Shown here piece by piece: positions 3,241 to 20,459 of a DNA stretch of 32,321 bases. The stretch is from the NCBI GenBank assembly GCA_009781515.1, contig WQXY01000024.1, positions 1-32,321 on the forward strand. Direction: 5' to 3'. The position numbers and the translations under genes are program-made. Source of the stretch: Oscillospiraceae bacterium. GTDB taxonomy: Bacteria > Bacillota > Clostridia > Oscillospirales > Oscillospiraceae. The notes under the pieces are model-generated. The model saw nothing but the letters and a program-made list of their open reading frames with translations, did no database searches and had not been told where the DNA came from. Positions within the stretch are counted from its first letter, which is position 1; every line of letters begins with the position of its first letter.

Positions 3241-3843
3241 ATGACAATTAAGGAACAAGTCGCTTATCTGCAAGGCTTAGCCGAGGGTCTGAACATCGGC
3301 GCCACAGACGAGGGTAAGCTGTTTTCCGCAATCATCGACACACTTGATGATATTGCAGATGAAATCGCAGAATTAAACGAAAATGCACTCGATATCGGTG
3401 AGGAGCTTGACGCGATATCGGACGACCTCGCTGATGTTGAAGACTTCTTGGAAGAACTCGACCTTGACGACGATGATTTCGACTTCGATTATGACGATGA
3501 CGATGATGACTGGGACTGGGACTATGACGACGAAGATGACGAGGACCTCGACGAGGACGAGCTTGACGAAGACGATGACTGGGACGACGACCAAGATGAG
3601 CTTCGCGCTTGTGACGGTTGCGGCGGCAGTGTAAAGTTTTCCATAAACGTTAATTGCCCGGAATGTAACGCCGAGCTTGAGCTTGATGATGAAGATATCG
3701 CAAAAGAACTGGTCACTTGCCCTGCCTGCGGCAAGAACATAGAGCTTGAAATTGAAGAAGTCGACGTGGATTTGGACGAAGACGACGATGACGGGGACAG
3801 CGATAACGGGCAGTCCGACAGCGGCGTCGAGTATTTAGGATAA
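3241..3843 (+). CDS. CD1247-type protein with poly-Asp linker and zinc-ribbon CxxC pairs
   Basis: A 200-residue cytosolic protein of unknown function, of the kind found next to efp in Clostridia (CD1247 N-terminal domain family by my recollection). Residues 1-72 form the conserved helical N-terminal domain (TIKEQVAYLQGLAEGL and acidic helices). Residues 73-120 are almost entirely Asp/Glu with Trp, Tyr and Phe interspersed. Three CxxC pairs follow: C124/C127, C139/C142 and C160/C163, which suggests a zinc-ribbon fold or more. The C-terminus is again acidic. A strong GGAGG precedes the start. The 3' end overlaps the convergent kinase A gene by 9 bp. Very acidic, RNA-polymerase-delta-like composition is notable, but no function is known to me. 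Reading-frame shadows across the GA-rich stretch are artefacts. Confidence 0.85.
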   Translation: MTIKEQVAYLQGLAEGLNIGATDEGKLFSAIIDTLDDIADEIAELNENALDIGEELDAISDDLADVEDFLEELDLDDDDFDFDYDDDDDDWDWDYDDEDDEDLDEDELDEDDDWDDDQDELRACDGCGGSVKFSINVNCPECNAELELDDEDIAKELVTCPACGKNIELEIEEVDVDLDEDDDDGDSDNGQSDSGVEYLG

Positions 3844-5703
3844 ATAATTACGCAGCACTTCAAATACCCGTTCAACATCAAGCGGTTTGCTTAGGTGGTC
3901 GTTCATACCGGCTTCAAGGCACTGCTCAATATCATCCTTAAACGCATTAGCCGTCATTGCAATAATTGGCGGCTTATTGTTTTGGGGTGAATACAAGGTG
4001 CGTATTCGCCGGGTTGCTTCAAGGCCGTCCATAACAGGCATTTGAACATCCATTAAAATAATATCGTACATGTCAGCTTCTGCTTCTATTATGTCTAAAG
4101 CTTCTTTTCCGTTCCCTGCGCTGTCAATAAGGATGCCTGTATGTTCTAAAATCGATACAATAATTTCTCTGTTGATTTCAATATCCTCGACAATAAGCAT
4201 CTTTTTCCCGTCAAATCTTATGTCCATATGACTTATATCATCGGACTTCGCGGCTATGGCATCGGGGTTTTCGCTTATATAATTTTGTCCTCTTATTTTT
4301 TGCAATACTTTGACCGTAAATATAAAACGCGCACCACTGCCTAACTCCGATTCGACCCATATGTTGCCACCCATAAGTTCAACAATTCGCTTTGAAATTA
4401 CAAGTCCAAGCCCTGTGCCGCCAAACTTGCGGCTTGTGTCGTCTTCAGCTTGTGCATACATTTTGAATAATCTGCTTTGTTGTTTAGGAGAAATACCTAT
4501 GCCGTTATCGGCTACATCGATACGTAGACGGCACTCATCACCGGACTGCTCGACTACATAGGCTGTAAGCTCTATTCTGCCATTTTCCGGCGTAAACTTT
4601 ATCGCATTTGATAACAGATTAGTTACCACTTGTGCCAAATGCTGGTCATCTGCAACAATACGCTCAGGTACATTACTGTCAATATTAACAGTCAAAAGCT
4701 GCCCTTTTTCTTCTGCACGGTAACTTACGACTTCAACTACTTTTTGCAGCATTTTTTCAAAATCGAACTCTACGGGCGACAGTTCAAGCTTGTTCGCTTC
4801 AATTTTTGCCATATCAAGCACTTCATTAATAACACCAAGTAATTGAAAAGATGCGTTTTCAATCTTGTTAAAAGCACGGTCTTTTTTGTCTATCTCTTGT
4901 GCTTTTTTTCCAATTGCCGTCATCCCTATTACTGCGTTTAAGGGGGTGCGTATCTCATGGCTCATTGTTGAAAGAAATTGACTCTTGGATAAACTTGCGT
5001 TGACGCTTTGAATGGCTTTTTTATTGTACGAGCGCATACAAAGATATCCTGACAGAACCGAAACAAGTAAAGAGAATATCAACATAAATCTCATTATTCT
5101 TATGTTGCTTCGCATAGTTACAAGAACTTCATCACTTATATCAACACCGGCTCCGCAATATACCGTGCCGTCATCATTAAACACCGGTACCACTGCGGTA
5201 AGAAGATCGTCCCAAGAGTCTGTATAGACACCTAAATCCGTTATCCAGCTTTTTCCTGCCTCAATTGCGAGAGCAGCTTCGGCAGAAATCTCGTCGGCTT
5301 CAAGTGAAAAAAACATAGCAGGATGTACCATATATTCTTCGTCTTCGTCATTATCTATAATGTATTGAATATAACCGTCCCCTGTGTAACGCCAATAATA
5401 CACATAGAGCACCTGAGTATCCTCAGCAAATTTTTGCAATCTTGTACGTATTTCTTCCCACTCGGGTCTTTCCATATCTTCTTCCGTATGGAAGAGGTCT
5501 AATTCATCAACTGTGAGGTAAACTGAAGCGTGATGAGCAGCAGTTAATAGATGCTTTTGGATACTGCCAAGTGTTTCTCTTTCCATACCGCTTATATAAA
5601 AAGAAAAAACTACAGCGACAAGTAACATAAACGCTGAAGATATAAAAAACAGTGCATATACGAGAGAAATTTTGACACTTGAGTTACTTTTTTCTTTTAC
5701 CAC
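3835..5703 (-). CDS. Kinase A: membrane hybrid histidine kinase (Cache-like - HisKA - HATPase - receiver)
   Basis: A 622-residue sensor kinase. TM helices at about 12-37 and 204-222 flank a roughly 165-residue extracytoplasmic domain whose end (PVFNDDGTVYCGAGVDIS) looks like the distal part of a Cache-type ligand domain. The H-box [18 protein letters not shown] puts the phosphorylated histidine at H249; the HATPase spans about 355-470 with G-boxes DNGIGI and GGTGLGL; a receiver covers about 508-622 with acceptor D552 in MDVQMPVMDG. There is no HPt domain, unlike kinases B to E, so phosphate must move to an HPt elsewhere or the receiver acts as an internal brake. The start is GTG, with GGAG 8 bases upstream. 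It is monocistronic, convergent with the CD1247-type gene and divergent from the acidic repeat protein. Its closest relative here in tail sequence is kinase F. Confidence 0.93.
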   Translation of the reverse strand: MVKEKSNSSVKISLVYALFFISSAFMLLVAVVFSFYISGMERETLGSIQKHLLTAAHHASVYLTVDELDLFHTEEDMERPEWEEIRTRLQKFAEDTQVLYVYYWRYTGDGYIQYIIDNDEDEEYMVHPAMFFSLEADEISAEAALAIEAGKSWITDLGVYTDSWDDLLTAVVPVFNDDGTVYCGAGVDISDEVLVTMRSNIRIMRFMLIFSLLVSVLSGYLCMRSYNKKAIQSVNASLSKSQFLSTMSHEIRTPLNAVIGMTAIGKKAQEIDKKDRAFNKIENASFQLLGVINEVLDMAKIEANKLELSPVEFDFEKMLQKVVEVVSYRAEEKGQLLTVNIDSNVPERIVADDQHLAQVVTNLLSNAIKFTPENGRIELTAYVVEQSGDECRLRIDVADNGIGISPKQQSRLFKMYAQAEDDTSRKFGGTGLGLVISKRIVELMGGNIWVESELGSGARFIFTVKVLQKIRGQNYISENPDAIAAKSDDISHMDIRFDGKKMLIVEDIEINREIIVSILEHTGILIDSAGNGKEALDIIEAEADMYDIILMDVQMPVMDGLEATRRIRTLYSPQNNKPPIIAMTANAFKDDIEQCLEAGMNDHLSKPLDVERVFEVLRNYLS

Positions 5704-5865: not shown

Positions 5866-6681
5866 ATGGATGATACAATATTACCGAGCGAAGCTGATGT
5901 AGCAGAATTACTTGACAGTATAGGTGAAACTGACCCGATGCTTGAAGTTGACCCCATGCTTGAACCGGAAGCTGAGCTTGATGCAATGCTTGAGGCTGAC
6001 CCTATGCTCGAAGTTGACCCCATGCTCGAGGCTGACCCCTTGCTTGAAGCTGACCCTATGCTTGAACCGGAAATCGAAGCTGAGCTTGAAGCTGTTATAG
6101 AACCCGAACTTGAAGCGGTTGTAGAACCTGAGCCGGAAATCGAACCTGAGGCGGAAACCATTCCGGAACTTATTTCCGAGCTCGACCAAGTGCTTGAGCC
6201 TGACCCCATGCGCGAGCCGGACCCTGCATTTGCGACCGAACCCGAGCCGGAACTTGAAATTGAACCCATGCCGGAACTTGAAGCAGAGCCTCTGCCCGAA
6301 ATAGAGTTTGAACCCGAGCCGGAGCCGGAGCTTCCTCCTGCTAAGAGCAAGGTTGACTGTGTTGAAACGGAAACTTCGCAGCTTGCTACAAACATCCGCC
6401 ATAAAATGAGTGTTATTGAGACAATATCTCATCTGCTCTCCGGTGCCGGCAGCGAGGTTGCGTCCGCTGTGGCACAGGCAATAGGCTCTGAAGAAGCAAT
6501 GCCTCTCGAGAGCACAAGTGCTTACGAGATTAAAGTAGACGCAATTGAAGAAAGCCTTGCCGAGTTTGCTGAGAGCATACGGCAAGACTTAAAAGTTATG
6601 GATGCAATTTCAAATTTACTCTCCGGAGCAAAAGATGAACCGTCAGCTGTGGGGACAAAAAGCAAGAAATCAACCAAGTGA
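5866..6681 (+). CDS. Acidic DPMLE-repeat protein with two C-terminal helical repeats, function unknown
   Basis: A 271-residue protein I do not recognise. Residues 1-22 look like a short amphipathic start; residues 23-67 hold tandem five- to six-residue units of the form (A/V)DPMLE; residues 68-157 are a looser Glu-Pro-Leu/Ile array; 158-170 is a short linker. Then two copies of a roughly 25-residue helical motif follow, at 173-197 (core IRHKMSVIETISHLLSGA) and 234-258 (core IRQDLKVMDAISNLLSGA), 61 residues apart, and a Lys-rich tail. There is no signal peptide, TM helix or catalytic motif. It has its own near-consensus promoter and a GGAG 11 bases before the ATG. It is the only intact plus-strand gene inside the kinase block and its 3' end overlaps kinase B by 12 bp. 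Likely disordered N-terminus with two docking helices; scaffold or adaptor role is inference. Confidence 0.7.
   Translation: MDDTILPSEADVAELLDSIGETDPMLEVDPMLEPEAELDAMLEADPMLEVDPMLEADPLLEADPMLEPEIEAELEAVIEPELEAVVEPEPEIEPEAETIPELISELDQVLEPDPMREPDPAFATEPEPELEIEPMPELEAEPLPEIEFEPEPEPELPPAKSKVDCVETETSQLATNIRHKMSVIETISHLLSGAGSEVASAVAQAIGSEEAMPLESTSAYEIKVDAIEESLAEFAESIRQDLKVMDAISNLLSGAKDEPSAVGTKSKKSTK
5932..6066 (+). repeat. In-gene tandem repeat encoding (A/V)DPMLE units
   Basis: Imperfect 15-18-base units of the form GCTGACCCTATGCTTGAA recur in frame and encode residues 23-67 of the acidic protein. Unit-to-unit differences are largely silent (CTT/CTC, CCT/CCC, ATG/TTG), so the peptide is more conserved than the DNA, which suggests selection on the protein. 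Confidence 0.75.
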
Positions 6682-9600
6682 CAATTTTTCAAGTGCTTTT
6701 AGCGCTGACTTAAAGTCGAAATCTTCTATATACATAACGAGATCTTCAGTGCCTTGTATCAGTCTGAGACTGTCTACAAACTCAAGACATTCCGAACTGC
6801 TTGATTTAAGCAGGGGTTCGAGCTTCTCAAGCACCCGAGCAGCGTCGCCGCCTAACAGCGAGGCTGCTTCTTTTTTTCCTGTCTGCAGCTCTTCTACCTC
6901 CGGCTCAAGCTCTGCGAGCACAGCACTCAGCTGTGTTTTTAAGTTTGCGAGCTGTTTCATTGATACAACACTTTTATCGCCCGAAAGACTGCTTTCGACT
7001 TCCTCGGCTGCCTGCTGCAGCTGCGTCTTTTTAAGCTGTCCTGCATTGCCTTTGAGAGTATGTGCAATTCTGTGCGCTAATTTTATATCGCCGTCTTCTA
7101 TGGCTTTAATAAGCTCGTCATATTTAGTTTTATTCTTTTTGACAAAGCTTATTTTCAGACGTTTGAGAAGTTCGTCATCTGCCGAACTTTGCCGCCGCTC
7201 ATTAATGGTAGTATAACTTTTTGCAGCAATGTATGTGAGCAGGCAGCTCCACAATTCCTGTGATGTAAAGGGCTTTCCGAGTGTATCATACATTCCTGCC
7301 TGCCTGTAAATTTCCATGTCATTTGTCATTATGTTGGCGGTCAGAGCAATTATCGGGGTTTTGACCCCCATTTCAATCATCAGCGAAGCTGCTTCAAGTC
7401 CGTCCATGACAGGCATATGAATATCCATAAAAATCAAATCAAACGGCTTTTCACCCGCTTCGCGCTTCTTTTTGACAATATCCACACCCACCTGCCCGTT
7501 TTCGGCAATAACGGCTTTTATACCCACTCTCGCCAAGTGGTCGCAAATAACCTGCTGATTGAGACTGTTATCTTCACAAATGAGGATTTCACCGTCAAAG
7601 TTTGGTTTTTCGAAATCGCTGAGAATTATTTTCGAGGGAACCATGTCGGCTGTTTCTTCGGTTAAATCAAATGTTATATCAAAGCTGAATTTACTGCCGA
7701 CCCCGACCATGCTCTCTACAACGAGAGTGCCGCCCATAAGCTCTATGAAGTTTTTGGTGATAGCAAGCCCTAAGCCTGTGCCGCCAAATCTGCGTGTAAC
7801 GGAGTCGTCAGCTTGCATAAACGGCTCAAAAATCCTTGTGATTTGTTCGGGCGTCATTCCTATTCCACTGTCTTTTATCTCAAAATGCATTGTTGCCGTG
7901 TCCTCACTTGTTTTTACAAGAGAGGCTAATAGCTTTACTATACCGCTGTTTGTAAATTTTACGGCATTAGAGAGCAGGTTTAGGAAAATCTGGCGAAGCC
8001 TAACGGGGTCTCCAAGCAGCTTTTTTTCAACAGACGGCTCGGCATAGCAGTAGAGTGAAATTCCTTTTTCTTCTGCTTTCGGAGCAATTGACATTTGGCA
8101 ATGAGAAAAAATATCGGGCAAATCGAACGGTACTTTTTCCAAGACAATTTTGCCGGACTCTATCTTGGAAATATCTAAGATATCGTTGATTATATTAAGC
8201 AGCCCTTTTGCACTGTCTTGAATGTTATCGAGGTATTCCTTTGATTTTTGCGGAATGTCATCGTCTTGTGCAAGCTCCGAAAACCCGATGATGCTGTTCA
8301 TCGGGGTTCTTATTTCATGACTCATGTTTGCGAGGAAAACAGACTTGGCAGCATTTGCGTGCTCGGCAGCCTCGCGCGTTTTTTCAATCTCTTCCAAGTG
8401 TGACTTTTGCTCTCTTAAATCTCTTAAAAACTCAGCGATAAGATACCCGTCCTTATGCTTGACGCGCACAAGTGTAACTTCGCACGGCAGAAGCTCCCCG
8501 CTTGTGGACTGATGCATCCACTCCTGACGGATATATCCCTCATCAAAGGCACGTCTGACCATTTCAAACTCGCCTGTGTCACTTTTCAAACCGTTTGGCT
8601 GATACTCAGGCGACAGTGCTGCATTATCGTCCAAGGCTTCCCTTTTTGTGACGCCGAAAAATGTCAATGCTTCTTCGTTACAGTTGATAATTTTTAAGTT
8701 TTCATCCCACAAAACGCAGCTCATAGGAGTGGAGTCAAACATAAGTCTTGCATATTCGTCTGAGGCGCGAATTTCGGTCATCATATTATTTAGCCGCTCT
8801 TCAATAGCTTTGGATATGAACATTGCTATTATTACACATGCCGCAAAAACAAAAAGTGTTATAGCCGCTCCAATCACAATAAAAATTGCAATTTTCTGAG
8901 TATCCTCTTGTGTGTAAAATCCTGCAAATACCATGCCGATAATCTCATCATCGGCGCCAAAAAGCGGAATGTATTTAGCTAATAAATCTTTGCCGAAAAG
9001 CTGTATTCTGTCAAAAAACGGCTCTCCTGCGAGCACCTTTTCACTTACATAATCTGCTACATTTGTTCCTATTATATGCCTGCCGTCTTCACCGACAACT
9101 GTCGAAGAAACACGCTGTGTTCCCAACAACATTGTTACTTCGCATCCTGTCTGTTCCTTTAGCTTATATACAAAGTTTTGGGTATCGAGCCGCAGTCCCA
9201 ATGATATGACACCAACAATATTCATATTATCGTCAAATATAGGCGCTCCTGCCATAATGCCAAGACGTATGGAGTCTCCTGATGCAATGTATGACTCAAT
9301 TTTGCCCTCAAATGCGGATTTAACATGAGACTGCTCGGCAATATTGTCACCAAAGTCGCCGAGGTCATAGGTTCTAACCAAAACAGTTCCCGTGTTGTCA
9401 AGTACCGTGCAAAAATCGAGCTGTGCGGTTGCCTTAAACGCGCTGACTACATCTGCAATCCTGTTTATATCATTGTCTGATATCGCTTCGCTCAAACTAA
9501 AGTTGTCTGTTGCCGCAAATGCCGCAAGACGTGCTTTTGCAGTCATCTCGTTGATTTCCGACTCGATGATTTTCATAGCAGTGTCAACTTTTTCCCGCAT

Positions 9601-9711
9601 GGAGTTATTAAGTTCTCTGCTGAAAAGAAAAATAGAAGAAAGGAGCACTGCAGCTCCGCACAGAACTACCAGCACAACCATAGGGACGAGAATTCGTTTT
9701 TTGATATTCAT
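6670..9711 (-). CDS. Kinase B: Cache-PAS hybrid histidine kinase with receiver and HPt
   Basis: A 1013-residue membrane kinase. TM1 (8-30) and TM2 (274-298) enclose a large Cache-type extracellular domain with features of single-Cache chemoreceptors (the segments RTYDLGDFGDNIAEQSHV and APIFDDNMNIVGVISLG). A PAS domain follows at about 318-432, then the H-box [18 protein letters not shown] (H465), HATPase at about 567-682, a receiver at about 707-825 (acceptor D763 in [10 protein letters not shown]), an HPt at about 850-935 (H884 in AHTLKGNAGQL) and a conserved C-terminal tail. All relay residues are present, so it can run His-Asp-His internally. It is the last gene of the five-gene operon, its ATG overlapping the stop of the lipoprotein gene (ATGA). 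The lipoprotein is a good candidate to present ligand to its outer domain, though that is inference. Confidence 0.94.
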   Translation of the reverse strand: MNIKKRILVPMVVLVVLCGAAVLLSSIFLFSRELNNSMREKVDTAMKIIESEINEMTAKARLAAFAATDNFSLSEAISDNDINRIADVVSAFKATAQLDFCTVLDNTGTVLVRTYDLGDFGDNIAEQSHVKSAFEGKIESYIASGDSIRLGIMAGAPIFDDNMNIVGVISLGLRLDTQNFVYKLKEQTGCEVTMLLGTQRVSSTVVGEDGRHIIGTNVADYVSEKVLAGEPFFDRIQLFGKDLLAKYIPLFGADDEIIGMVFAGFYTQEDTQKIAIFIVIGAAITLFVFAACVIIAMFISKAIEERLNNMMTEIRASDEYARLMFDSTPMSCVLWDENLKIINCNEEALTFFGVTKREALDDNAALSPEYQPNGLKSDTGEFEMVRRAFDEGYIRQEWMHQSTSGELLPCEVTLVRVKHKDGYLIAEFLRDLREQKSHLEEIEKTREAAEHANAAKSVFLANMSHEIRTPMNSIIGFSELAQDDDIPQKSKEYLDNIQDSAKGLLNIINDILDISKIESGKIVLEKVPFDLPDIFSHCQMSIAPKAEEKGISLYCYAEPSVEKKLLGDPVRLRQIFLNLLSNAVKFTNSGIVKLLASLVKTSEDTATMHFEIKDSGIGMTPEQITRIFEPFMQADDSVTRRFGGTGLGLAITKNFIELMGGTLVVESMVGVGSKFSFDITFDLTEETADMVPSKIILSDFEKPNFDGEILICEDNSLNQQVICDHLARVGIKAVIAENGQVGVDIVKKKREAGEKPFDLIFMDIHMPVMDGLEAASLMIEMGVKTPIIALTANIMTNDMEIYRQAGMYDTLGKPFTSQELWSCLLTYIAAKSYTTINERRQSSADDELLKRLKISFVKKNKTKYDELIKAIEDGDIKLAHRIAHTLKGNAGQLKKTQLQQAAEEVESSLSGDKSVVSMKQLANLKTQLSAVLAELEPEVEELQTGKKEAASLLGGDAARVLEKLEPLLKSSSSECLEFVDSLRLIQGTEDLVMYIEDFDFKSALKALEKLSLG

Positions 9712-10685
9712 TTATGTGTCCATTTCTCCAAAAGTCTTTCTTTTTCCTCAGAGGTATTATTAGACATATCGGCATAAATAATGCCTACAGGATAATTGGG
9801 GAGCGAAAATTCTCTTTCTTTATATATCCTTTCGGGACAAAACAGCACTTTGTCCATTTCAGTCCATTTTGTGACAATATAATCGAAAACTTCGCTGACC
9901 TCACGCTTTGTTTCTTTTCCTTTAACAATACCTTTGCCGTACAGCGAAAACGGAGAACCCTCTTCAAAGAAGCTAATTCTGAGAGGATAACCGTTGTTGA
10001 TTTCATTGACTGTTTGAGCAGTCATAGCAAACCCTATTGCCACCTCTTCATTTTTGAGCGCATTTACAGGACCTGAGCCGGAGCTTGTGAAAGCTGAAAT
10101 ATTCTTTGACAGCTTCTCAAAGTAGTCAAATGCTTTGTCTTCGCCCCATGCATTAACAAGGCTCTTTAGGAACATATATCCCGTGCCCGATGACTGCGGA
10201 TTTGGCATGGAAATAAGCCCCTCATATTCGGGTTTTAATAAATCCTCATAGCTTTCAGGAACAGCCAGATTTCTTTCAGAGAGAACTGTTCTGTTGATTG
10301 CGATGCAACCGCCGTTACGGTACCATGGCAGGTATTTAGGGACATGAGGTATCATATCTTCAGTATAAATATCGGTATCATATGCTGATAAATCAGCCAA
10401 GACATCGGTAATTCTTGCAAGATTGCCATATTCCATTTCACCGATGATATCACATTGTGTGTCTGTACCGTTTGTGAGCAGCTCAGCTAACAAATCACCT
10501 GTTGAATAGTATATGATTTGAATGTCGTAGTTTGGAAACTGAGCATCAAGGTCTTTTTGCATTGCTTCAATACGGTGATCTTCCGCACTGCTGTAAATCA
10601 TAACTGTGGGCGGCATTTTTCCGCCGCATGCAACCAAAGCCGCCATAATACACGCTGCCAAAAAAAGGCAAACAATTTTTTTCAT
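9708..10685 (-). CDS. Solute-binding lipoprotein (type 2 periplasmic-binding fold, Fe3+/AfuA-PgtC-like)
   Basis: A 325-residue extracytoplasmic binding protein anchored by lipid. The signal peptide ends in a lipobox LVAC with the modified cysteine C20. The mature part has family-1 binding-protein features: MIYSSAEDHRIEAMQKDLD, a CDIIGEMEYGNL stretch, the hinge-region segment SMPNPQSSGTGYMFL and a GSGPVNALKNEEVAIGF segment, like iron-type and phosphoglycerate-sensor (PgtC) proteins. No permease or ATPase gene accompanies it. It begins directly after the stop of kinase C (TAAATG) and its stop overlaps the start of kinase B (ATGA), so it is made in step with two kinases. By analogy with PgtC-PgtB, where a binding protein feeds a kinase, it is likely a sensory rather than a transport protein. 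Ligand unknown. Confidence 0.88.
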   Translation of the reverse strand: MKKIVCLFLAACIMAALVACGGKMPPTVMIYSSAEDHRIEAMQKDLDAQFPNYDIQIIYYSTGDLLAELLTNGTDTQCDIIGEMEYGNLARITDVLADLSAYDTDIYTEDMIPHVPKYLPWYRNGGCIAINRTVLSERNLAVPESYEDLLKPEYEGLISMPNPQSSGTGYMFLKSLVNAWGEDKAFDYFEKLSKNISAFTSSGSGPVNALKNEEVAIGFAMTAQTVNEINNGYPLRISFFEEGSPFSLYGKGIVKGKETKREVSEVFDYIVTKWTEMDKVLFCPERIYKEREFSLPNYPVGIIYADMSNNTSEEKERLLEKWTHK

Positions 10686-12899
10686 TTATTTTTCCAACTC
10701 CGCTAAAAACGCTTCAACTGCACTTTCCGCTTCTTCAAAATCACTGAGCAGTATATGCTCTTTTACATTTTCAAATGCTTTTTTCTTCTTGTCAAAATGC
10801 CTTATGATACCGGACAAGGTGTCGAGCGTTCCTTTTCTGTTATACTCGGCACACATTGCCTTAAACGCTATAAGACTCTCCCGCAGGTCTGTTATATCGT
10901 CACCGTCATCTGTTGCTTCCTGTCTAAGTTCCAGCTTTTGAAGCAGCTGCTTGAGACCCTCTACAAAACCGGGCGTGGTTTGTTCAATAAATCCGATGTT
11001 TTTGTCACGTGCGGCATCTTCCAAATCGGAAGCAATTTGAGACAGCTGCGGCTCGCCGATGTTTCCGAGTGAGCTTTTCATTCCATGGACAACTGTTGCA
11101 AAGTTGCGCAGTTCGTTGTCATCATCTGCCTTGCTATTTTTACAGAATTCTTCCAATGTGTCAATTGCTTTTTTTGTATCTCTTGTTGCAGACTCGATAA
11201 GGAGCGGCTCCATGGCTCCGATGGTGTCGTGTGCGTCGTGCGCACTGCCGTTTTGCTCCTGTGCCGCTTTTATGGTTTCGGGTGATTGTTTATCTTTTAT
11301 GTGCTTATTCAAAACACGATCAAGCTCGCGTGTATCTATCGGTTTTGAGATAAACTCATCAAAACCGCCTGCGAGGAAAATTTCCGCCTGTCCTGTCATT
11401 GCATTTGCCGTCAGTGCTACTATGGTTCCGCAGTACCCCTTGTCGCGAAGAAGCTTTGTTGCTTCCATTCCGTCCATTTCCGGCATCATATGGTCCATAA
11501 AAATTATATCATATATTTTGCCGTCAATGCATTTATCAACGGCTTCCCGCCCGCTTATTGCCGTTTCCACATTCAGTTTATAGGGCTTCATAAGCTTTTC
11601 GGCTACAAAAATATTTGTTTCCGTATCATCAACAATTAAAACCTTACCGTATGGCATAGGTTCACGTTTGAACTTATTTTTCTCTCTGTATGATGAATTA
11701 CTCTGCCTGAACCGCCGCAGGTTTTCGGCTACATCTTTACCCAAAACTTCATCATTTATTGTTTCCTGCGGAAGTCGTATAGTGACCGTGGTGCCCACAT
11801 TTGGTTCACTTTCAACTTGAAGCTCACCGTGCATAAGATTAACAAGGCGTTGTGTAATGGACAAACCAAGCCCCGTGCCTTCAATGCTGCGGGTGGAGTT
11901 TTCGTTAAAACGGGAGTATTCGTCAAACATTTTATCGAGCTGCTCTTTGGTCATTCCGTGTCCTGTGTCTTTAACGACCAAAACAAGGTTCGCATTTTTA
12001 CCGTCACTCTCGCGATTTGCAATAATTGATAAAGAAACCTTGCCTGCGCTTGTGTACTTAAAAGCATTGGATAAGATATTATTAAGTATTTGCTTGATAC
12101 GGAGCTCATCGCCTATAAGCTTCGCGGGGATATCATCTGTAATATTAAGTTCAAATTCAATGGGTCTGTTTCCGATACGCATCATATTCAGATGAATAGC
12201 ATCGTTGACCATGCTTGCAACCTGATATGTTGCAGGTAATATATCAAGCTTGCCCGCTTCAATTTTTGAAAAGTCCAAAATATCATTAATAATCCCGATG
12301 AGCATTTCGCTTGAAGCGTATACCTTATCAAGACCCTCTGCTATTTCGTCAGATAATGTTTCGTTTTGCATCAAAATATCGGTGATACCCATAATGGCAT
12401 TCATCGGTGTGCGGATTTCATGACTCATGTTCGCCAAAAATGAAGATTTTGATTTATTGGCGGCTTCTGCAATTTCTGCGGCAGACTCCGCTGCTTCCAA
12501 AGCACTTTCAAGTTCACGTTGAAGATTGACGATTTTCAGCTGCTGACCGACTCTGAGTTTAACAACCGTTGCGTCAAAGGGCTTGCGGATATAGTCAACC
12601 GCACCGATTGCCAGACCCTCACTCTCATTGACCGCATCTTTCATTCCCGTTATGAAAATGACTGGGATTGATTTTGTTCGCTCCTGCTTCTTAAACTCGG
12701 CGATAACCTCAAACCCGCTCATGTCGGGCATGATAACATCAAGCAAAATAATATCCGGCAAAAACTCATTTGCGTTTTCGAGCGCAGACATGCCGTCTTT
12801 GACCGAACGGATTTTGTAATCCTCCTTGAGAATATGTATGAGTTCCATGAGGTTTGAGGGATCATCATCTACAATCAGTATACTATTTTTCTTTTCCAT
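10686..12899 (-). CDS. Kinase C: cytosolic receiver - HisKA - HATPase - receiver - HPt hybrid kinase
   Basis: A 737-residue soluble kinase with no TM helix. An N-terminal receiver (about 5-120, acceptor D54 in LLDVIMPDMSG, acidic pocket DDD at 11-13) leads through a signalling helix (113-150) into the H-box [18 protein letters not shown] (H160), HATPase (about 262-385), a second receiver (about 417-530, D469 in MDHMMPEMDG) and an HPt (H605 in VVHGMKSSLGNIG). The receiver at the front means its input is a phosphoryl group, so it is built to collect signal from other kinases' HPt domains, making it the likely integrator of the operon. It starts 9 bp after the kinase D stop, with the ribosome site AGGAG overlapping that stop codon. 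Its C-terminal tail is related to, but more diverged than, those of B, D and E. Confidence 0.94.
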   Translation of the reverse strand: MEKKNSILIVDDDPSNLMELIHILKEDYKIRSVKDGMSALENANEFLPDIILLDVIMPDMSGFEVIAEFKKQERTKSIPVIFITGMKDAVNESEGLAIGAVDYIRKPFDATVVKLRVGQQLKIVNLQRELESALEAAESAAEIAEAANKSKSSFLANMSHEIRTPMNAIMGITDILMQNETLSDEIAEGLDKVYASSEMLIGIINDILDFSKIEAGKLDILPATYQVASMVNDAIHLNMMRIGNRPIEFELNITDDIPAKLIGDELRIKQILNNILSNAFKYTSAGKVSLSIIANRESDGKNANLVLVVKDTGHGMTKEQLDKMFDEYSRFNENSTRSIEGTGLGLSITQRLVNLMHGELQVESEPNVGTTVTIRLPQETINDEVLGKDVAENLRRFRQSNSSYREKNKFKREPMPYGKVLIVDDTETNIFVAEKLMKPYKLNVETAISGREAVDKCIDGKIYDIIFMDHMMPEMDGMEATKLLRDKGYCGTIVALTANAMTGQAEIFLAGGFDEFISKPIDTRELDRVLNKHIKDKQSPETIKAAQEQNGSAHDAHDTIGAMEPLLIESATRDTKKAIDTLEEFCKNSKADDDNELRNFATVVHGMKSSLGNIGEPQLSQIASDLEDAARDKNIGFIEQTTPGFVEGLKQLLQKLELRQEATDDGDDITDLRESLIAFKAMCAEYNRKGTLDTLSGIIRHFDKKKKAFENVKEHILLSDFEEAESAVEAFLAELEK

Positions 12900-12908
12900 T
12901 AAAAACTC

Positions 12909-15900
12909 CTAATTCAACCCTTTTAGCTTTGAAACTATTTCAAGAGCCGCCTTAAAATCAAATTCTTCCATTTTTTCAATGAGCATGGCAGTATCCGGTA
13001 TTTGTCTGAGCTTGTCCGTAAATGTAAAACACTCAGTATCACCCTCCTGCAGATACGGTATCAGCTCATCGAGCAGTTTGTCCGCTTCCTCTTTGCTGAG
13101 CTTCTGTACATCTTCGTTTTCTTTTGCGCTTACAGAAACCCTTGGCTCAAGCTCTTTAATGACTTTATTCAGTTCTTTTCCGAACACTGTCATATGTTCA
13201 CTTTCGACAAGGTTTTTCTCGTCCTTGAGATGATACTCAATAACCTCTGCGGCTTGCTGCAAGAGCGTCTTGCCAAGCTGTCCGGCATTGCTTGCCAAGG
13301 TATGTGCAAGCCTGTGTGCCAGCTTAATATCTCCCGAGCTGATTGCATCTGTTATCTCATTATACTTGTTTTTATTACTTTTTACGAAATTATTTATAAG
13401 TTTTTGCTGCAGCTCGCTGTCAGCCTCCGTTTTTTTGGTTTTATCCTCCGCCTGCCACTCTACCGGCTCAAAATACTTGAGCAGACAATGCCACAGTTCT
13501 TGAGAGGTAAACGGCTTGCCTATGTAGTCACTCATACCGCTCATTTCGTAGACAACCTGATCGTTTGTCATGATGTTTGCCGTCATTGCAACAACGGGAA
13601 CGTCAATATTAAGCTCAAGTATTTTCCCCGCAGCTTCAAGACCGTCCATAACGGGCATATGAATGTCCATAAATATAAGGTCAAATTGTTTTTCATTTTT
13701 TTCTATCCGCTCTTTAACCAAATTAACGCCTATCTGTCCATTTTCGGCGACGCAGGTTTTGAGACCCACTCTTGCAAGATGCTCGGTTATAACCTGCTGG
13801 TTCATGCTATTGTCTTCGCATAAAAGGATTTCACCCTTAAATGACGGCTTATCCATATGAATTGGCGCTTTTTTGTGTTCGAGTACGATTTTATCATTTG
13901 CATCGATTGTTTCAAATGTAATTTCAAAGCTGAACTTACTGCCGACTCCGGGTGTACTTAGGACTGTCAGCTCGCCGCCCATCATTTCAATCAGATTTTT
14001 TGTGATTGCAAGTCCGAGACCTGTACCACCGTATTTGCGGGTTGTGCCGGTCTCCGCTTGTGTGAACATCTCAAATATATTTTCGATTTGCTCCTGTGTC
14101 ATTCCAATGCCTGTATCTTTTACCTCAAATAGCATTGTGACAGAATTTTCGGTGAATTTTCTGACAGCCGACTGGACTTTGATTAAACCTGTGCTTGTAA
14201 ATTTGATTGAGTTTGAAAGCAGGTTAACAAGCACCTGAAACAGCCTTGTCGGATCACCCAGAGGCACTCTACCTATAGACGGCTCGGCATAAAAATGAAG
14301 TAAAAGCCCCTTGCTGTCAGCCTTTGGCAAAATCATTGTGCGGCAGTCGGAAAACAGTTCATGTAAGTTAAACGGAATTTTCTCAAGCTCCAATTTGCCG
14401 GACTCGATTTTTGAAATATCCAAAATGTCGTTGATAATCTGCAAAAGCCATTCCGAGTTTTGCAGAATATTTGCCAAATAATCCTTTGCTCTTTGCGGTA
14501 TGTCTTCACCCAAGGCAAGCTCGGAAAAACCGATAACACTGTTCATGGGAGTTCTTATCTCATGACTCATTTTCGCAAGAAACTCAGTTTTGGCTTTAGA
14601 GGCAAGCTCAAGCTCCTGCGTCCGCACTCCGACAAGTTTTTCCAAGCGTTTACCTGCATTGCGGCTCCTAAAGAACAACACAATAAGCAAGGTGAGTACA
14701 CATCCGAAAAGCACAAGCACACCGATAAACAAAGGCTGCTGAGCTTCTGCAATTTGTGCACGGTAGTCGTATGTTCGACGCATCCATTGGTTTGCAATGC
14801 CGTTTGTATCTATGGATTTAAGGGCTTTGTCAATAATGGAGCACAAGATAACTTCATTTTGATTAAATCCAAATCTTGTATCAATGCTTTGGTCAAAAAC
14901 ATAGTTGAGCTTATAGCCTGTTTGCTCCTGATAGTGTGTCAGGAACATGAGTCTTCTCTCCGTAGTCATAACCATATCTACTTCGCCGTTGAGCAGGGCA
15001 ATAAAGCTCTCCTCAATGCCGTCATATTCAACGGTATTTTCATGTCCGGGAAACCACTGCAAAAACATGGCGGTATAAGCAGTGCCACGGGTTAAGCCTA
15101 CCTTCGTGTGCAGTATTTCGTTGGTTGTGATGTTTCTGTAGTCCGCTCTGGATATAAGCGCATAATAGTCGGTCTGGATTGATGTTTCGGGCCAGATAAA
15201 ATACTCCTCGCGCGCTTTTGTCCATATCAAATCAGCAACAAAAGCCACCTCACCGTCGCGAAGCATTTCCTGCATTTGTGCCCATTCGGTATTTTCATCG
15301 TTTTGAAGCTCAAAGGTCAGACCTGTGAGCGCTTCGATTTCAATGAGCAAATCAAAAAATATTCCCTGCCATTCATTGTATCGCCTGTTATAGAAGCAAA
15401 TCGGGTAGTTTGAATAAATCGCCGCAACCGGAATGGGCAGAGTGCGGGTTCGGATATGTTCACGCTCCTCGTCGGTCAGTTGATTTTGCAGCTTGTGCTT
15501 CAGAAACTCCTTGTATCCGGTGTTGTAAAGGTCAACTAAATATCTTTTACCACCGTTTTGCAAAACCTTGTCAACTACAGAAATAATTGGCTCAAATAAA
15601 TCTGTTTGCGTTGCCATTGAAAGTGAAACATAAATCAAAGGATAAAAATCCAATACCACAATATCTTCATATCTGTCAAAGTGCACCTCGGCTACTTCGC
15701 TGTAAAAATATGCGTCGATTTCCCCGCTTATGAGTGCCCCGTGCACACTTTCAAAATCGCCGAGCGTGACAATTTCAAATGTTCCGGGCTCCATAGCTTC
15801 GGTAACACGGTCAATCGTAGCTGTACCCTCCATAAAACCGCAGCGCAGCGGTCTTTTGGCAGTTATTTCCCCAAAAGGCTCGCTGTCTTTCAAGCGGTAT

Positions 15901-16352
15901 GCTTTGACATGGCGTGTTGCAATCGCACCTGTCATATGGAAAATATCTTTGCGGTCTTCCGTGGCAATCAAGTCTCCTGTAAATGCAACTTCTCCTGTTT
16001 CGAGTCCATCCAATAAATCAAGCCATTCGTACAGCTGCGGCTTAAAGGTAATCCCGAAAAGCTCTGTCAGCCACTCGCAAAACAGTGCCGAGTATCCCCT
16101 TATTTCGCCGTTTTCGTTTACAAATGCTTCGGTGCTCAGCGGCATACCGTATGTAAAGTAATCAACTTCTCTTTGCAGTGCTTCAATCGCTTGTATTTCC
16201 TGCTCGGTAATTTCGGGAACGTCCTTATATGAGGTGAAGATTATAAAGTCGTCACCGTCTGATTGCACATTTTGTGCACAGCCCGCTACAGCGGTAGCTG
16301 CGATGACAGCGGCAAGCACAATACAAACTGCTCTTTTCAGATATTTGTTCAT
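12909..16352 (-). CDS. Kinase D: dual venus-flytrap hybrid histidine kinase with lipobox (BvgS-like input)
   Basis: A 1147-residue kinase with two tandem SBP_bac_3-type ligand domains outside the cell (about 50-285 and 295-530), one TM helix (541-562), H-box [18 protein letters not shown] (H597), HATPase (about 700-815), receiver (D896 in [10 protein letters not shown]), HPt (H1017 in [11 protein letters not shown]) and a C-terminal tail. The order resembles BvgS/EvgS, but there is no PAS between TM and kinase. The N-terminus is a signal peptide with a lipobox VAGC, C25, so the protein may be lipidated outside and also span the membrane. The HPt has Ala where the usual Lys follows the histidine (HxLK to HTLA). 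Its ATG overlaps the kinase E stop (ATGA), with AGAGG upstream. Flytrap ligands are usually amino acids or similar small molecules; this one is unknown. Confidence 0.93.
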
Positions 16353-19300
16353 TGCACGTACCTCTCTTTTAGCTTCGATAGGGCTTCCATTGCAGCTTTA
16401 TAATCAAACGCTTCGATTTGTTTAATGAGTTCATTTGTGTCAGGGAATAAGACAAGCCTGTCGATAAAGTCCATACATTCACTGTCACTCTCTTTGAGCA
16501 TCGGCTCAAGCTCATCAAGCAGGCGGGCGAGCTGTGTGGTGTCTGCCTGCGTATCCGTCAAATTTGCTTTCTGCCGGTTTTCTTCGCCCGCAATCGGCTC
16601 AAATTCCGCCAGCACTTCCTGCAGTTCTTTTTTCAGCTTATCAATCTGCTCTTGTGTAACAAGATTTTTTCCGTCCTTAAGATTGTCTTCTATTTCGTCG
16701 GATATTTGAGACAGGTCATATTTGTTAAGCTGTCCTGCATTACTTTTTAAGGTATGCACAAGTCTGTGTGCAAGTTTAATGTCTTCGGAGTTTATTGCAT
16801 TTGTTATGTCTTCGAAAATTCGACAGTTGCTGCTTACAAAATTTACTATCAGCTTTTTCCTGAGCTTTTCCTCAGCTTGCGTATTTCGTGTTTTATCCTC
16901 TTCATTCCAACTGATTGGTGTGAAAAATTTCATCAAACAACGCCACAGTTCCTGTGATGTAAACGGCTTGCCGACGTAGTCAACCATTCCGCTTGATTTA
17001 TACATCTCACGGTCTTCTGCCATTATATTTGCCGTCATCGCAACAACAGGAACACCTACGTCAAGCTCAAGGATTTTAGCAGATGCCTCAAGCCCGTCCA
17101 TTACGGGCATATGCATATCCATGAATATGAGGTCAAATTGCTTTTCACCTTTTCTTTGGCGTTTTTTCACCATGTCAACACCGATTTTTCCGTTTGCCGC
17201 AACCACTGTATCAAGTCCCACTCTCGACAGATGCTCGCATATGACCTGCTGGTTCATTGAATTATCTTCACACAGCAAAATCTCGCCTTTGAAAGTGGGC
17301 TTTCTAAGTTCACTCAGAACTATTCTTGTTTCGGACAAATCATCCGTGCTCACATCTATCGTTTCAAATGTCAGCTCAAAAAAGAACTTACTGCCTACTC
17401 CGAGCGTGCTCTCTACCTTAAGCTCCCCGCCCATCATTTCGAGCAAATAGTTGGTTATGGCAAGACCGAGTCCCGTGCCGCCGTATTTTCGTGTGGTGCC
17501 GGACTCTGCCTGTATGAACGGGATAAATACCTTGTCAATCTGCTCGGGAGTCATACCTATACCGCTGTCTTTAATTTCAAAGTATATGGTTACTGTGCTC
17601 TTTTTGAGTTCTTTGATTGTGGAGTGAACTTTTACGATACCTGAGTTTGTAAACTTCACTGCATTTGAGAGAAGATTTGCAAGCACCTGACGCAGTCTCG
17701 TCGGGTCGCCGAGCGGCATTCTGCCGACAGACGGCTCTGCGTAAAAATGCATCATAAGTCCCTTTTCTTCCGCTTTTGGTGTAATCATAGTGCGGCATGC
17801 GGTAAAAATTTCATGCAGGTCAAACGGGATATTTTCAAGCTCGAACTTACCGGACTCAATTTTTGAGATATCTAAAATATCGTTGATAATATGTAAAAGC
17901 CATTCGGAATTTTCAAGGATACTTGTCAGATATCCCTTGGTTTTATCTGATATATCATCATCTAATGCAAGCTCGGAAAACCCGACTATACTGTTCATCG
18001 GAGTGCGAATTTCGTGGCTCATATTTGCAAGGAAATCACTTTTTGCCTTGTTGGCTTCCATTGCAATTTCGGATTTTCGAATTTCATCAATCAGCCTATG
18101 ATGATCTCTTAAGTCTCTTACATAACACGCTAACATATAATCATTTTGAAAGGTTGCACGGATAAGAGTAACCTCACATGGCAGCGGCTCTCCGTTTATG
18201 TCCAAATGCATCCATTCGAACTTACGGTATCCCTCTTCAAAAGCACCATCTATCAGTTCTGCTGCCATTTGGGAAGATAATCTTCCGTTAGGCTGGTACT
18301 CCGGCGTAAATTTTTCTTGCCATGTGTCGATATATTCCTGCTTGTGAGATACTCCGAATAAGTTGATAACCTCCTGATTGCAATCGATTATTTTATAGTC
18401 TCTTGTCCAGATACTCACACACATGGGTGTGGAGTCAATCATGATTTGTGTACGCTCTTCCGCTTCGCGGAGTTTTTCCACGTCACGCACAATGCAGCTC
18501 ATCGGGATATTGACCTTTAGTGCGATTTTTCTTGCCATATCTCGGCATGTGTCGCTGCCGCAAGCGCCGCAGTCCATGGTTTGTTTTTCTGTCGTATCTT
18601 TTTTTAAGAGCTTAAATGCGGCTGTGATATCGTCGTCTGTGAGTTCGGTTAATGTTGTGTTTATCCGTCGGTATTCTCTGATAAAGTGAGACGGGTTAAA
18701 TTTGTCGTTATATTCCTTATAGAGCTCCTTGTAGTAGTCTGCACCATATTTACTTGCCGCTTCTCTTTTGCGGTTATCCATTATTGTTTCGACTTCAAGA
18801 AGATTTCGTTCATGCGAGCAGCCCGTACCAACATTGCACCCGTCGATACAGTTCAAGACGTCGTACATTTCAGGTCTGTATGCGTCGTGTGTTTTGGCAT
18901 ACATGTCGAGCTTTTTATATACCGTTGAACCCTCTGCCGAATATGTGCGGATTTCTCTGTTTAAGATAAGTTCAAGATTGTCTTTAAGCCCGCCCGGCGC
19001 GGGAAAAAGAGAACCTAATGCACCAATGAGGTCAAAGTCGGTTTCTTTTATGGGAAGCCTGATGTTATTTTTTTCTATATAGCTGAGCAGACCGCTGAAA
19101 GTTATGTTGTAGTGAGGAAAGCCCACTGCCTCAAACTCGTTTCCTTTTGCTACGCACGGGGAGAGCACGGCAATTTTCCCCTGTGTTTTTTCGTACTGCC
19201 TGATGTAAATTGCTGTACACACCATAGGGCTGTGTATCGGAGAGAGATATTCGAGCAAATCATGGCGATACATTTCGCAATATGAAACAATAGCCGGACA

Positions 19301-19738
19301 CGACTGGTTGATAATCCTGATAGCGTCCGACTGTTTTATGTGATTTATTGATGCCCATACGCAAATATCAGCCCCGAATGACGCATCATATATTTTGTCA
19401 ATGCCTAAGCCTTTTAAGTATGAAAAGAACTTTTTGTATTCGGGGATATTAATTTGAATTGAAGGCGCCGCAATAACTGATATTTGAACTCCCGCTGCGA
19501 GGTCTGCAAAAAACTGCTCGGTATCGTCAACAAAATATCTTGCGTTATGGTGGCATGTATATATGCAAAGTCCGCACACAATACACTGCGTGCTGTCGAT
19601 GTTGACTTTTATGTTTTCGTCTTCATCAAGATATGTGATGTTTGCCGTTTCCATCGGGCAGCCTCTGACACATCTGTTACATCCCGTGCATATATCATGC
19701 TTGGTTTTAATAATTTCTTTCAAACTTACTTTCTCCAC
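16349..19738 (-). CDS. Kinase E: [FeFe]-hydrogenase-like sensor fused to PAS hybrid histidine kinase
   Basis: A 1129-residue soluble protein. Residues 10-65 hold two [4Fe-4S] ferredoxin motifs (C17/20/23/27 and C52/55/58/62). Residues 85-345 are an [FeFe]-hydrogenase large-subunit-like domain with all four cubane/bridging cysteine positions: C147 (QSCPAI), C195 (SPCVAK), C297 and C301 (NCIDGCNVG). Ser replaces the proton-relay Cys before C147, as expected of a sensory rather than a catalytic enzyme. A further Fe-S motif follows (C390, C393, C398, C415). Then come PAS (427-545), H-box (H575), HATPase (677-792), receiver (D874), HPt (H995) and tail. It probably reads H2 or redox state. It is the first gene of the operon. 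The GTG at 19738 lacks a clear ribosome site; a TTG at 19723 with GGAG 9 bases upstream is an alternative start. No hydE/F/G maturation gene lies in the window. Confidence 0.93.
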
Positions 19739-19777
19739 ATTTCTATGTTATCACGCAAGCTGCTTTATATTCTCAAT

Positions 19778-19806
19778 ATTATACAACTGTGCTTCACGGA
19801 AAACAA
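19778..19806 (-). promoter_or_regulatory. Candidate promoter of the five-gene kinase operon
   Basis: Minus strand TTGTTT (19806-19801), 17-base spacer, perfect TATAAT (19783-19778), leaving a leader of about 35 bases before the kinase E start. It lies in the short gap between the operon and the truncated plus-strand kinase remnant, the only non-coding space available for an operon promoter. Confidence 0.5.
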
Positions 19807-19871
19807 GAGAAAGGTTTGAGAAACGGTCTCCACTTGATGCATATCGATACGGCTATGCAAACTGTGGTGTG

Positions 19872-20459
19872 ATGTATTCAAGCATGGACGAAACTGTTGA
19901 GAGCCAAATTAAATGGGTGGACAGCATAATGCGGGCGGTGTCGCGAATGGGCGGGCTTGTCGGTGATTTATTGTCGCTTGCCCGTATGGAAGACACAGAT
20001 ACCGGACTTTTTATTGAAAAGCTTGACCTAAGCGGGATTATCACGGAAACTGTCTGTGAAATGGAGCCTGCGGCACTCGAAAAGGGGCTTTCAATAGATA
20101 GGCAAATTGAGCCCGATATTACTTTGGATAGCGATAAGGAGCATATCCTGAAAATAGTTTCCGTCTATATTGATAATGCCATTAAGTATACCGACGGCGG
20201 CGGCAAGGTCGAGGTTTCGCTGCAAAGGGATAAGCGGGAGATTGTACTTTCTGTCCGCAACACGGGCGACGGCATACCAAAAGATGACTTGGACAAGGTG
20301 TTTGACCGGTTTTACCGCAGCGACCCTTCAAGGTCGTCCGAGAGCGGAGACTTCGGGCTTGGTCTTGCAATAGCAAAGGCAGCAGCCGAGCGGATTGGCG
20401 CCGTGCTGCAAGTAAGCAGTGAGCCGGGGGAATACACGGAGTTTCGGTTGGCGATTTAA
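19872..20459 (+). pseudogene. 5'-truncated classical sensor histidine kinase remnant
   Basis: About 195 residues corresponding to the last part of a non-hybrid EnvZ/PhoR-type kinase. Visible are the second half of the dimerisation helix pair (RMGGLVGDLLSLARMED), the HATPase N-box (VYIDNAIKYT), G1 (NTGDGIP), F-box (FDRFYRSD) and G2 (FGLGLAIAK), ending normally. The sensor, TM helices and the H-box with its phosphorylated histidine are absent: upstream of the ATG at 19872 the frame stays open but shows no kinase similarity and runs into the operon promoter and the antisense of kinase E. It therefore cannot autophosphorylate in the usual way. Its stop abuts the stop of convergent kinase F with no gap. 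No ribosome site precedes the ATG. Best read as a deletion relic; an expressed HATPase-only fragment cannot be excluded. Confidence 0.75.

Follow-up and report, generated by a model that had tools for sequence, protein, structure and literature searches.

A candidate many-to-one phosphorelay built from hybrid histidine kinases with dissimilar sensors in an Oscillospiraceae bacterium

Introduction

Four hybrid histidine kinases and a binding lipoprotein are encoded side by side in an Oscillospiraceae bacterium, and no output protein accompanies them. Do these proteins form one circuit, and if so, where does the signal go? The genes lie on contig WQXY01000024.1 of GenBank assembly GCA_009781515.1, a metagenome-assembled genome (MAG) of 2.3 Mb in 57 contigs; the whole stretch of 32,321 nucleotides that was analysed, one of these contigs, is called the window here. 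According to the list of open reading frames (ORFs), the five genes, which we designate E, D, C, SBP and B in the order of reading, are co-directional and occupy 19738 to 6670 of the minus strand. E, D, C and B each encode a histidine kinase (HK) with receiver (REC) and histidine phosphotransfer (HPt) domains, and SBP encodes the lipoprotein.

Hybrid-kinase phosphorelays that converge are known from the Vibrio LuxQ-type/LuxU system, from Vibrio fischeri SypF with HahK, and from the Pseudomonas Gac network. As in these systems, several sensors encoded by the block would converge on one shared relay protein. The block differs from them in that its shared element is an operon-encoded kinase with an N-terminal receiver (REC-HK-REC-HPt), and in that its sensors carry HPt domains of their own. 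Here, we describe a comparative analysis of the block. We put forward, at roughly even confidence, a reading in which the block encodes a many-to-one phosphorelay, with C as the collector or bridge and an effect on cyclic-di-GMP as the likely end result.

Organization of the block

The first-pass annotation of this DNA had reported five linked genes with ATGA, 9 bp, TAAATG and ATGA junctions, and the gaps that we find, -4 bp for E/D, 9 bp for D/C, 0 bp for C/SBP and -4 bp for SBP/B, bear this out, the ORFs being longest frames and not gene calls. Its account of the kinases was also confirmed. HK, REC and HPt were found in each of the four by Pfam, and a motif scan located their phospho-accepting His and Asp residues and ATP-binding motifs (the N-box of B, missed by the regular expression, is readable directly in the sequence). 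The inputs differ as had been described, namely hydrogenase/ferredoxin, double flytrap, receiver only, and Cache plus PAS, and Pfam detects no output domain in the block.

Kinase E (16349 to 19738, minus strand, as are all features of the block) carries two [4Fe-4S] motifs, an [FeFe]-hydrogenase H-domain, a C-terminal FeS motif, PAS, HisKA-HATPase, REC and HPt. Kinase D (12909 to 16352) has two SBP_bac_3 ligand domains ahead of HK, REC and HPt. Kinase C (10686 to 12899), the putative collector, reads REC1-HK-REC2-HPt, with no sensor domain found by Pfam. The lipoprotein of the SBP_bac_6 type (9708 to 10685) is the partner of kinase B (6670 to 9711), in which Pfam finds Cache_3, PAS, HK, REC and HPt. 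The HPt domains were placed by a profile search at 16607 to 16852 in E, 13164 to 13400 in D, 10932 to 11168 in C and 6913 to 7146 in B. That of C scored 23.7 bits in the Pfam scan of the window, with a cut-off of 24.6, and 26.5 in the genome-wide scan. That of D has Ala at the usual Lys of H-x-L-K (HTLAS) and an intact phospho-accepting His.

Two classes of kinase and phosphotransfer domain

Trees were built with FastTree and rooted at the midpoint, identical sequences being counted once, from 266 HK cores (261 unique) at loci that resemble E or C or that gave HPt or receiver matches in the window's genome. Loci carry L numbers and genomes G numbers; L001-L030 and L127-L128 (short, or replaced by L147) and L167-L198 (found later) lie outside the trees. 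The kinases of E, D and B fall into one clade of 96 members (support 0.994), here termed E-class, and that of C into a separate clade of 86 (support 0.942), termed C-class. The HPt domains divide in the same way: for all 146 unique HPts (82 E-class, 64 C-class), the nearest HPt outside the same locus was of the same class. Thirteen E-class kinases were placed in the window's genome, ten of them outside the window.

HPt domains also occur as stand-alone genes, of the E-class at L111 (6043-6603), L149 (1615-2181) and L058 (9956-10540) and of the C-class at L151-L153. The one at L111, in the window's genome, adjoins a PAS-GAF-REC gene. Elsewhere in this genome a cyclic-di-AMP receptor gene (CdAMP_rec; L112, 8884-9210) is overlapped by an orphan E-class kinase.

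REC1 of C belongs with receivers that follow E-class kinases

Each receiver took its label, E-class or C-class, from the kinase gene that immediately precedes it on the strand, provided that the gap was less than 150 bp, and the hybrids' own C-terminal receivers were excluded. REC1 of C (12564 to 12881) lies in a receiver clade of 81 tips (support 0.874). Of the 40 receivers (38 genes) encoded immediately behind E-class kinases, 38 fall in this clade, versus 4 of the 31 (22 genes; 18 of these receivers from REC-REC genes) immediately behind C-class kinases. With genes that have their own C-class kinase left out, the counts are 28 of 30 versus 3 of 30; at 60% non-redundancy they are 12 of 13 versus 2 of 19 (Fisher p 5e-6; all p values given for this clade treat related sequences as independent). 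On the tree of the 60 labelled receivers, the class label changes 5 times, compared with a minimum of 13 changes in 1000 shuffles, and assignment by the nearest neighbour from other loci was correct for 28 of 30 E-class and 25 of 30 C-class receivers. Among receiver-first kinases, the receiver falls in the clade in 25 of 26 that adjoin an E-class kinase versus 16 of 30 others, two such kinases at L154, whose receivers are identical to others, standing outside both counts.

The immediate surroundings of REC1 form a clade of 19 tips (support 0.966). Sixteen of its 18 non-hybrid receivers lie directly behind an E-class kinase and none behind a C-class kinase, while the remaining two (L147, L149) are directly behind neither; at L149, a stand-alone E-class HPt is encoded directly upstream of the C-like gene. 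The nineteenth tip, from L050 (7688-11905), is a receiver fused behind an E-class HPt (SBP3-SBP3-HK-REC-HPt-REC). In this protein the two proposed partners are naturally joined, and no other observation points as directly to a pairing of E-class HPts with receivers of the REC1 type. Since in C a C-class kinase, receiver and HPt are preceded by a REC1 of the kind seen behind E-class kinases, C is probably a bridge between the two branches.

E-class kinases recur directly upstream of C

The ten closest C proteins, the window's included, form a clade with members from the window, Oscillospiraceae, Treponema and one Defluviitaleaceae MAG. Nine of the ten are encoded directly behind an E-class kinase, and the sensors of these nine upstream kinases are of the hydrogenase (4), SBP3 (4) and Cache (1) types. 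An E-type kinase (E_HK 70%) also stands directly upstream of the C relative at L196, in a treponeme genome, a locus found through C alone. The tenth closest C (L147) comes from G002, a genome of the same genus (Oscillospiraceae bacterium isolate Emb289P3bin50, WQXS01), where the run is E-class > REC-HK > E-class > E-class REC-HK-REC > REC-GGDEF-REC-HD-GYP > C > REC-REC. A gap of 6 bp separates the REC-GGDEF-REC-HD-GYP gene from the C homologue that follows it. Within its 668-aa product, the first receiver, joined to GGDEF, is ~63% identical to C REC1 receivers, and the second, joined to HD-GYP, is 73-76% identical to REC-HD-GYP receivers.

The first-pass annotation had proposed one network, with C as the collector through its N-terminal receiver and the output elsewhere. 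The class trees and the adjacency lend this proposal comparative support. Its gene-order search yields a mixed answer: E-class-then-C adjacency recurs in relatives, and the exact five-gene set was not found among them, so that strict conservation of the set was rejected. The five genes as a fixed unit are likewise not supported; in G002, the relatives of E (L035), D (L140), SBP plus B (L139) and C (L147) are scattered over four places, those of E and D having no receiver gene directly downstream. Gene order varies as well, E-D-C in the window versus D-E-C in L033. An output gene just outside the block had been named as a finding that would tell against the proposal. None is present here; in G002, the REC-GGDEF-REC-HD-GYP gene is such a neighbour of C.

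Could the block be a mere pile-up of duplicated or transferred kinases that share no circuit, with short junctions reflecting compact packing? Such an origin would fit the scatter in G002, the variable order, a genome with 28 HPt matches (25 over the cut-off) and 85 receiver matches, and a receiver clade that partly follows protein type. It would not lead one to expect that E-class-then-C adjacency recurs with different sensors in Oscillospiraceae, Treponema and Defluviitaleaceae MAGs, or that receiver type tracks kinase class even when GGDEF proteins are removed, and we consider it unlikely.

A second alternative is that E-class HPts are not paired specifically with C but feed a genome-wide pool of similar receivers of which C is one member. 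Consistent with a pool, five of the ten E-class kinases outside the window (L111, L112, L120, L121, L122) are followed directly by neither a receiver gene nor an E-class gene, and REC-GGDEF or REC-HD-GYP-REC-GGDEF genes with similar receivers are present elsewhere in the genome (L108, L114, L172). A pure pool does not require an E-class kinase directly upstream of C, as found in nine of the ten closest relatives and at L196; this alternative is doubtful, with an appreciable share of the probability.

Candidate outputs

Seventy-one of the 96 E-class kinases have a next gene on the strand, and in 38 cases it begins with a receiver: 12 are REC-GGDEF genes, 21 REC-kinases (10 of these receiver-first kinases being C-class), 3 lone receivers and 2 REC/GGDEF/HD-GYP fusions. 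The others are E-class sensors (19), HPt genes (3), a sensor kinase of another class (1) and genes without a match to the local models (10). At L108, in the window's genome, two E-class kinases, one with a Cache and one with a hydrogenase sensor, overlap into a REC-HD-GYP-REC-GGDEF gene in which the GGEEF and HD/HHE-GYP motifs are intact. The position of C behind E-class kinases is thus taken at other loci, L108 included, by a cyclic-di-GMP enzyme. Behind the 56 C-class kinases with a next gene, the genes include REC-REC (9), REC-HD-GYP (2) and REC-GGDEF (2). Runs that hold a GGDEF or HD-GYP gene linked to a receiver differ by the class of their kinases. Of 12 such runs with C-class kinases only, 10 contain HD-GYP and 4 contain GGDEF; of 9 with E-class kinases only, 1 contains HD-GYP and all 9 contain GGDEF. 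The window's genome has 14 GGDEF and 3 PilZ matches. Taken together, the domain content of these neighbours suggests that the end point is most likely cyclic-di-GMP turnover.

Alternatively, the target could be an orphan DNA-binding response regulator encoded elsewhere. Thirty-eight kinase-free receiver proteins were listed from the fetched stretches of the window's genome, outside which at least one of its 85 receiver matches (G000:C10:29583) lies. Among the 38 are proteins with Trans_reg_C (10), LytTR (3) and an AraC-type helix-turn-helix (1), which would suit a transcriptional output, together with HD_5 (4), GGDEF (3), CheB (2) and CheW (2). The receivers of the 16 single-receiver proteins of 220-270 aa, which by size take in most such regulators, do not exceed 43% identity to the labelled sets, compared with 47% (L117) to 79% (L108) for those of GGDEF/HD-GYP proteins. 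No DNA-binding neighbour recurs on the run maps, which themselves carried no DNA-binding models. We give a transcriptional output slim chances.

A proposed circuit and the evidence against it

In the circuit that we favour, E would sense redox state or H2 through its HydS-like [FeFe]-hydrogenase domain, D an extracellular ligand through its two SBP3 domains, and B a signal through the lipoprotein as co-receptor plus Cache. Each of the three would run His-Asp-His transfer within one protein, and their E-class HPts would hand phosphate to REC1 of C, the sensors being interchangeable. Phosphorylated REC1 would gate the kinase of C itself, and the C-class HPt of C would send the signal on to C-class partners encoded at a distance, namely REC-REC and REC-HD-GYP proteins. 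In this manner C may divert signals that elsewhere are wired to diguanylate cyclases into the other branch, and the end effect would most likely be on cyclic-di-GMP. We infer phosphotransfer and its direction, the gating of C, the ligands and the cyclic-di-GMP end point from domain content and comparison of loci.

Several observations weigh against this circuit. Most relatives were found through E, so the adjacency counts are partly ascertained, L196 being the exception. The 81-tip clade is in part a clade of protein type: 21 of 22 REC-GGDEF receivers fall inside it whatever the nearby kinase, proteobacterial ones included. Controls for protein type meet this confounder in part. Without GGDEF proteins the clade takes in 23 of 24 E-class versus 2 of 29 C-class receivers (p 1e-11); receiver-first kinases alone give 20 of 21 versus 2 of 6 (p 0.004), a comparison that rests on 6 C-class cases; and the remainder, neither GGDEF nor receiver-first and mostly REC-REC, gives 3 of 3 versus 0 of 23. 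Four receivers behind C-class kinases lie inside the clade and two behind E-class kinases outside. Stand-alone HPts directly upstream of receiver-first kinases with receivers of the clade are C-class in L046, L151, L152 and L153 and E-class in L149. Ten of the 71 genes behind E-class kinases match none of the eight local models, and Pfam names cellulase, peptidase, flagellar, Band 7 and other proteins among them. The branches are not clean, as C-class runs may end in REC-GGDEF (L160, L161) or hold both outputs (L136, L137). Genes for the candidate targets of C stand directly behind few C-class kinases, REC-REC genes behind 9 and REC-HD-GYP genes behind 2 of the 56, and a search for GEMM-I riboswitches gave no match, its controls being silent too. 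Finally, sequence class is a proxy for phosphotransfer.

HydS-type sensors and converging phosphorelays are known kinds of system. Within the literature searched, we found no precedent for the class rule, for a collector that is a receiver-kinase, for the putative operon link between an [FeFe]-hydrogenase sensor and cyclic-di-GMP, or for the spread across phyla; the search found nothing that joined termite, two-component, cyclic-di-GMP and Treponema. The class rule, which relates kinase and HPt class to receiver class, offers a testable prediction of partners in genomes with dozens of hybrid kinases, and the block is a concrete candidate for a link from [FeFe]-hydrogenase sensing to cyclic-di-GMP. 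More tentatively, HydS-type and ligand sensors may be multiplexed through one collector that couples diguanylate-cyclase and HD-GYP branches, the module having been passed among termite-gut Oscillospiraceae, Treponema and Defluviitaleaceae. Were this so, phyla that share a gut would detect the same signals with common components, a case of signalling equipment shared across phyla.

Kinase E as a putative HydS-type sensor

The order of Pfam domains in E is Fer4, Fe_hyd_lg_C (6.2e-24), FeS, PAS, HisKA, HATPase, REC and HPt, and the HydS-like input comprises residues 1-420 (18479 to 19738). Its H-domain contains the motifs SCP, SPC and NCxxGC, which we take to be the Cys ligand motifs for the [4Fe-4S] part of the H-cluster, so that this set of ligands is complete in E. 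A Cx2Cx4Cx16C cluster at residues 390-415 is followed by PAS_9 at 443-544, the arrangement looked for in HydS. TIGR04105, the sole hydrogenase model among the 25 NCBIfam models listed, scored far below its cut-off. Termite treponemes reportedly possess H2 sensors of the [FeFe]-hydrogenase type, described by Ballor and co-workers, and part of the present findings may be in print.

The features of group C putative sensory [FeFe]-hydrogenases (HydS), of which C1 is linked to histidine kinases, are given in the tables of PMC5037454 and PMC8163306. E resembles group C1 in its two N-terminal [4Fe-4S] motifs, H-domain, Cx2Cx4Cx16C cluster, PAS and histidine kinase. As in group C generally, the proton-transfer Cys of group A is not conserved, E having Ser at this position (NQSCPA), which was placed by motif and not by structural alignment. 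E departs from HydS in having REC and HPt within its own chain, in its link to a shared collector kinase, and in its homologues of 66-67% identity across a phylum border. As far as the same tables go, the links of [FeFe] groups C1-C3 are to histidine kinase, chemotaxis and phosphatase, and a diguanylate-cyclase link is given for [NiFe] group 2c.

The C-class REC-HK-REC genes at L163 and L164 each stand behind a FEHYD gene that showed no kinase domain; such a FEHYD gene perhaps encodes a hydrogenase sensor that has become separated from its kinase.

The lipoprotein, B and D

The lipoprotein has a Pfam match to SBP_bac_6/8 and a lipobox-like ACGG seen by eye. Its nearest NCBIfam model, a putative 2-aminoethylphosphonate binding protein, scored below the cut-off (169.8 versus 392.75 bits), and among its relatives in the PDB are proteins whose names refer to Fe3+ and one whose name refers to pyridoxal 5-phosphate. 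Our guess is that its ligand is a phosphorylated small molecule. NCBIfam names for the kinases were rejected, all matches shown being below cut-off.

HptA/HptS is a pair of a binding lipoprotein and a kinase. Like it, the block has a gene for an SBP_bac_6-type lipoprotein adjoining a membrane kinase gene, B, and the pair is kept in G002 (L139), where the lipoprotein is 74% identical and pieces of B are 60-83% identical. In contrast to HptA/HptS, B is itself a hybrid, having REC and HPt domains, and no dedicated response regulator gene accompanies it. In L139 the pair adjoins a divergent REC-HK-REC gene and has no E, D or C beside it; SBP-B is a separable module. The B kinase groups with Oscillospiraceae at the nearest levels of the tree, and SBP-B therefore looks like a local addition.

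As regards D, the kinase core of Treponema D proteins (compared through L033, 118-3582) groups with that of the window's E and not with that of its D. This suggests that sensor and kinase parts may have been exchanged between neighbouring genes.

Transfer between phyla

YebC of the window is 82-84% identical to its counterparts in two genomes of the same genus and 44-45% to those in four treponeme genomes, with no match in a fifth, G061. E, by comparison, shares 69% identity with its homologue from the same genus and 66-67% with four proteins of Treponema, and C is 57% identical to its homologue in G002 and 63-64% (three), 60-63% (three more) and 55% (one) to Treponema proteins. In L041, named Oscillospiraceae, E is 74-76% identical to the treponeme proteins and 64% to that of the window. 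Close relatives of C are patchily distributed, occurring at E 1e-215 in at least 5 of 195 genomes of the treponeme family, a lower bound in that five candidates per genome were scored. Because the Treponema homologues are nearly as close (E) or closer (C) than same-genus ones, lateral transfer between phyla, in one direction or the other, is well supported.

Mis-binning as the sole cause of this similarity was rejected by markers on the contigs of L031 and L037, the checks covering these two and not L032, L033, L034, L038, L148 or L041. The gyrB of the L031 contig is 90-91% identical to that of three of four other treponeme genomes (the fourth, G073, gave a 34% match) and 53-54% to that of Oscillospiraceae, and the flagellin of the L037 contig is 81-95% identical to its best match in four other treponeme genomes versus 43-48% in full-length Oscillospiraceae matches.

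At L031 (13766-20520, Treponema), the E homologue is on its own next to a DUF3375 gene, behind which lie ORFs of 230, 1125 and 404 aa. These look like a Wadjet defence operon, a reading based on a domain match for DUF3375 and on gene sizes for the rest. A YhcG/DUF1016 nuclease gene (L034, 6847-7881) lies near an x-E-C cluster.

Flanking genes and host genome

The genome is rich in HPt and receiver domains, and a hybrid cluster is thus less unusual here than it would be elsewhere. Emb289, part of the name of the G002 isolate, is linked to the termite Embiratermes neotenicus in PMC7024585; from this same-genus source we infer a termite-gut origin for the window's genome.

Pfam detected no GGDEF, EAL, HD-GYP or response-regulator DNA-binding domain in the 19 ORFs scanned outside the block or in the kinase at 20460-22958. 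The 19 ORFs are mostly housekeeping genes plus one hybrid kinase; YebC at 27251, which is no response regulator, matches Pfam Transcrip_reg. On either side of the block is a hybrid kinase, at 3835-5703 and at 20460-22958 (minus strand); the two were rejected as members of the system, as neither falls in the E-class or C-class clade.

At the B end of the block, an acidic ORF of 271 aa with repeated DPMLE-like units (5866-6681, plus strand) is convergent with B and overlaps its last bases; it has no Pfam match over the cut-off. Between the kinase at 20460-22958 and E lies an ORF (19563-20459, plus strand) whose 5' end overlaps the start of E. It has an HK ATPase domain, with no HisKA match and no regulator partner, and is probably a gene remnant.

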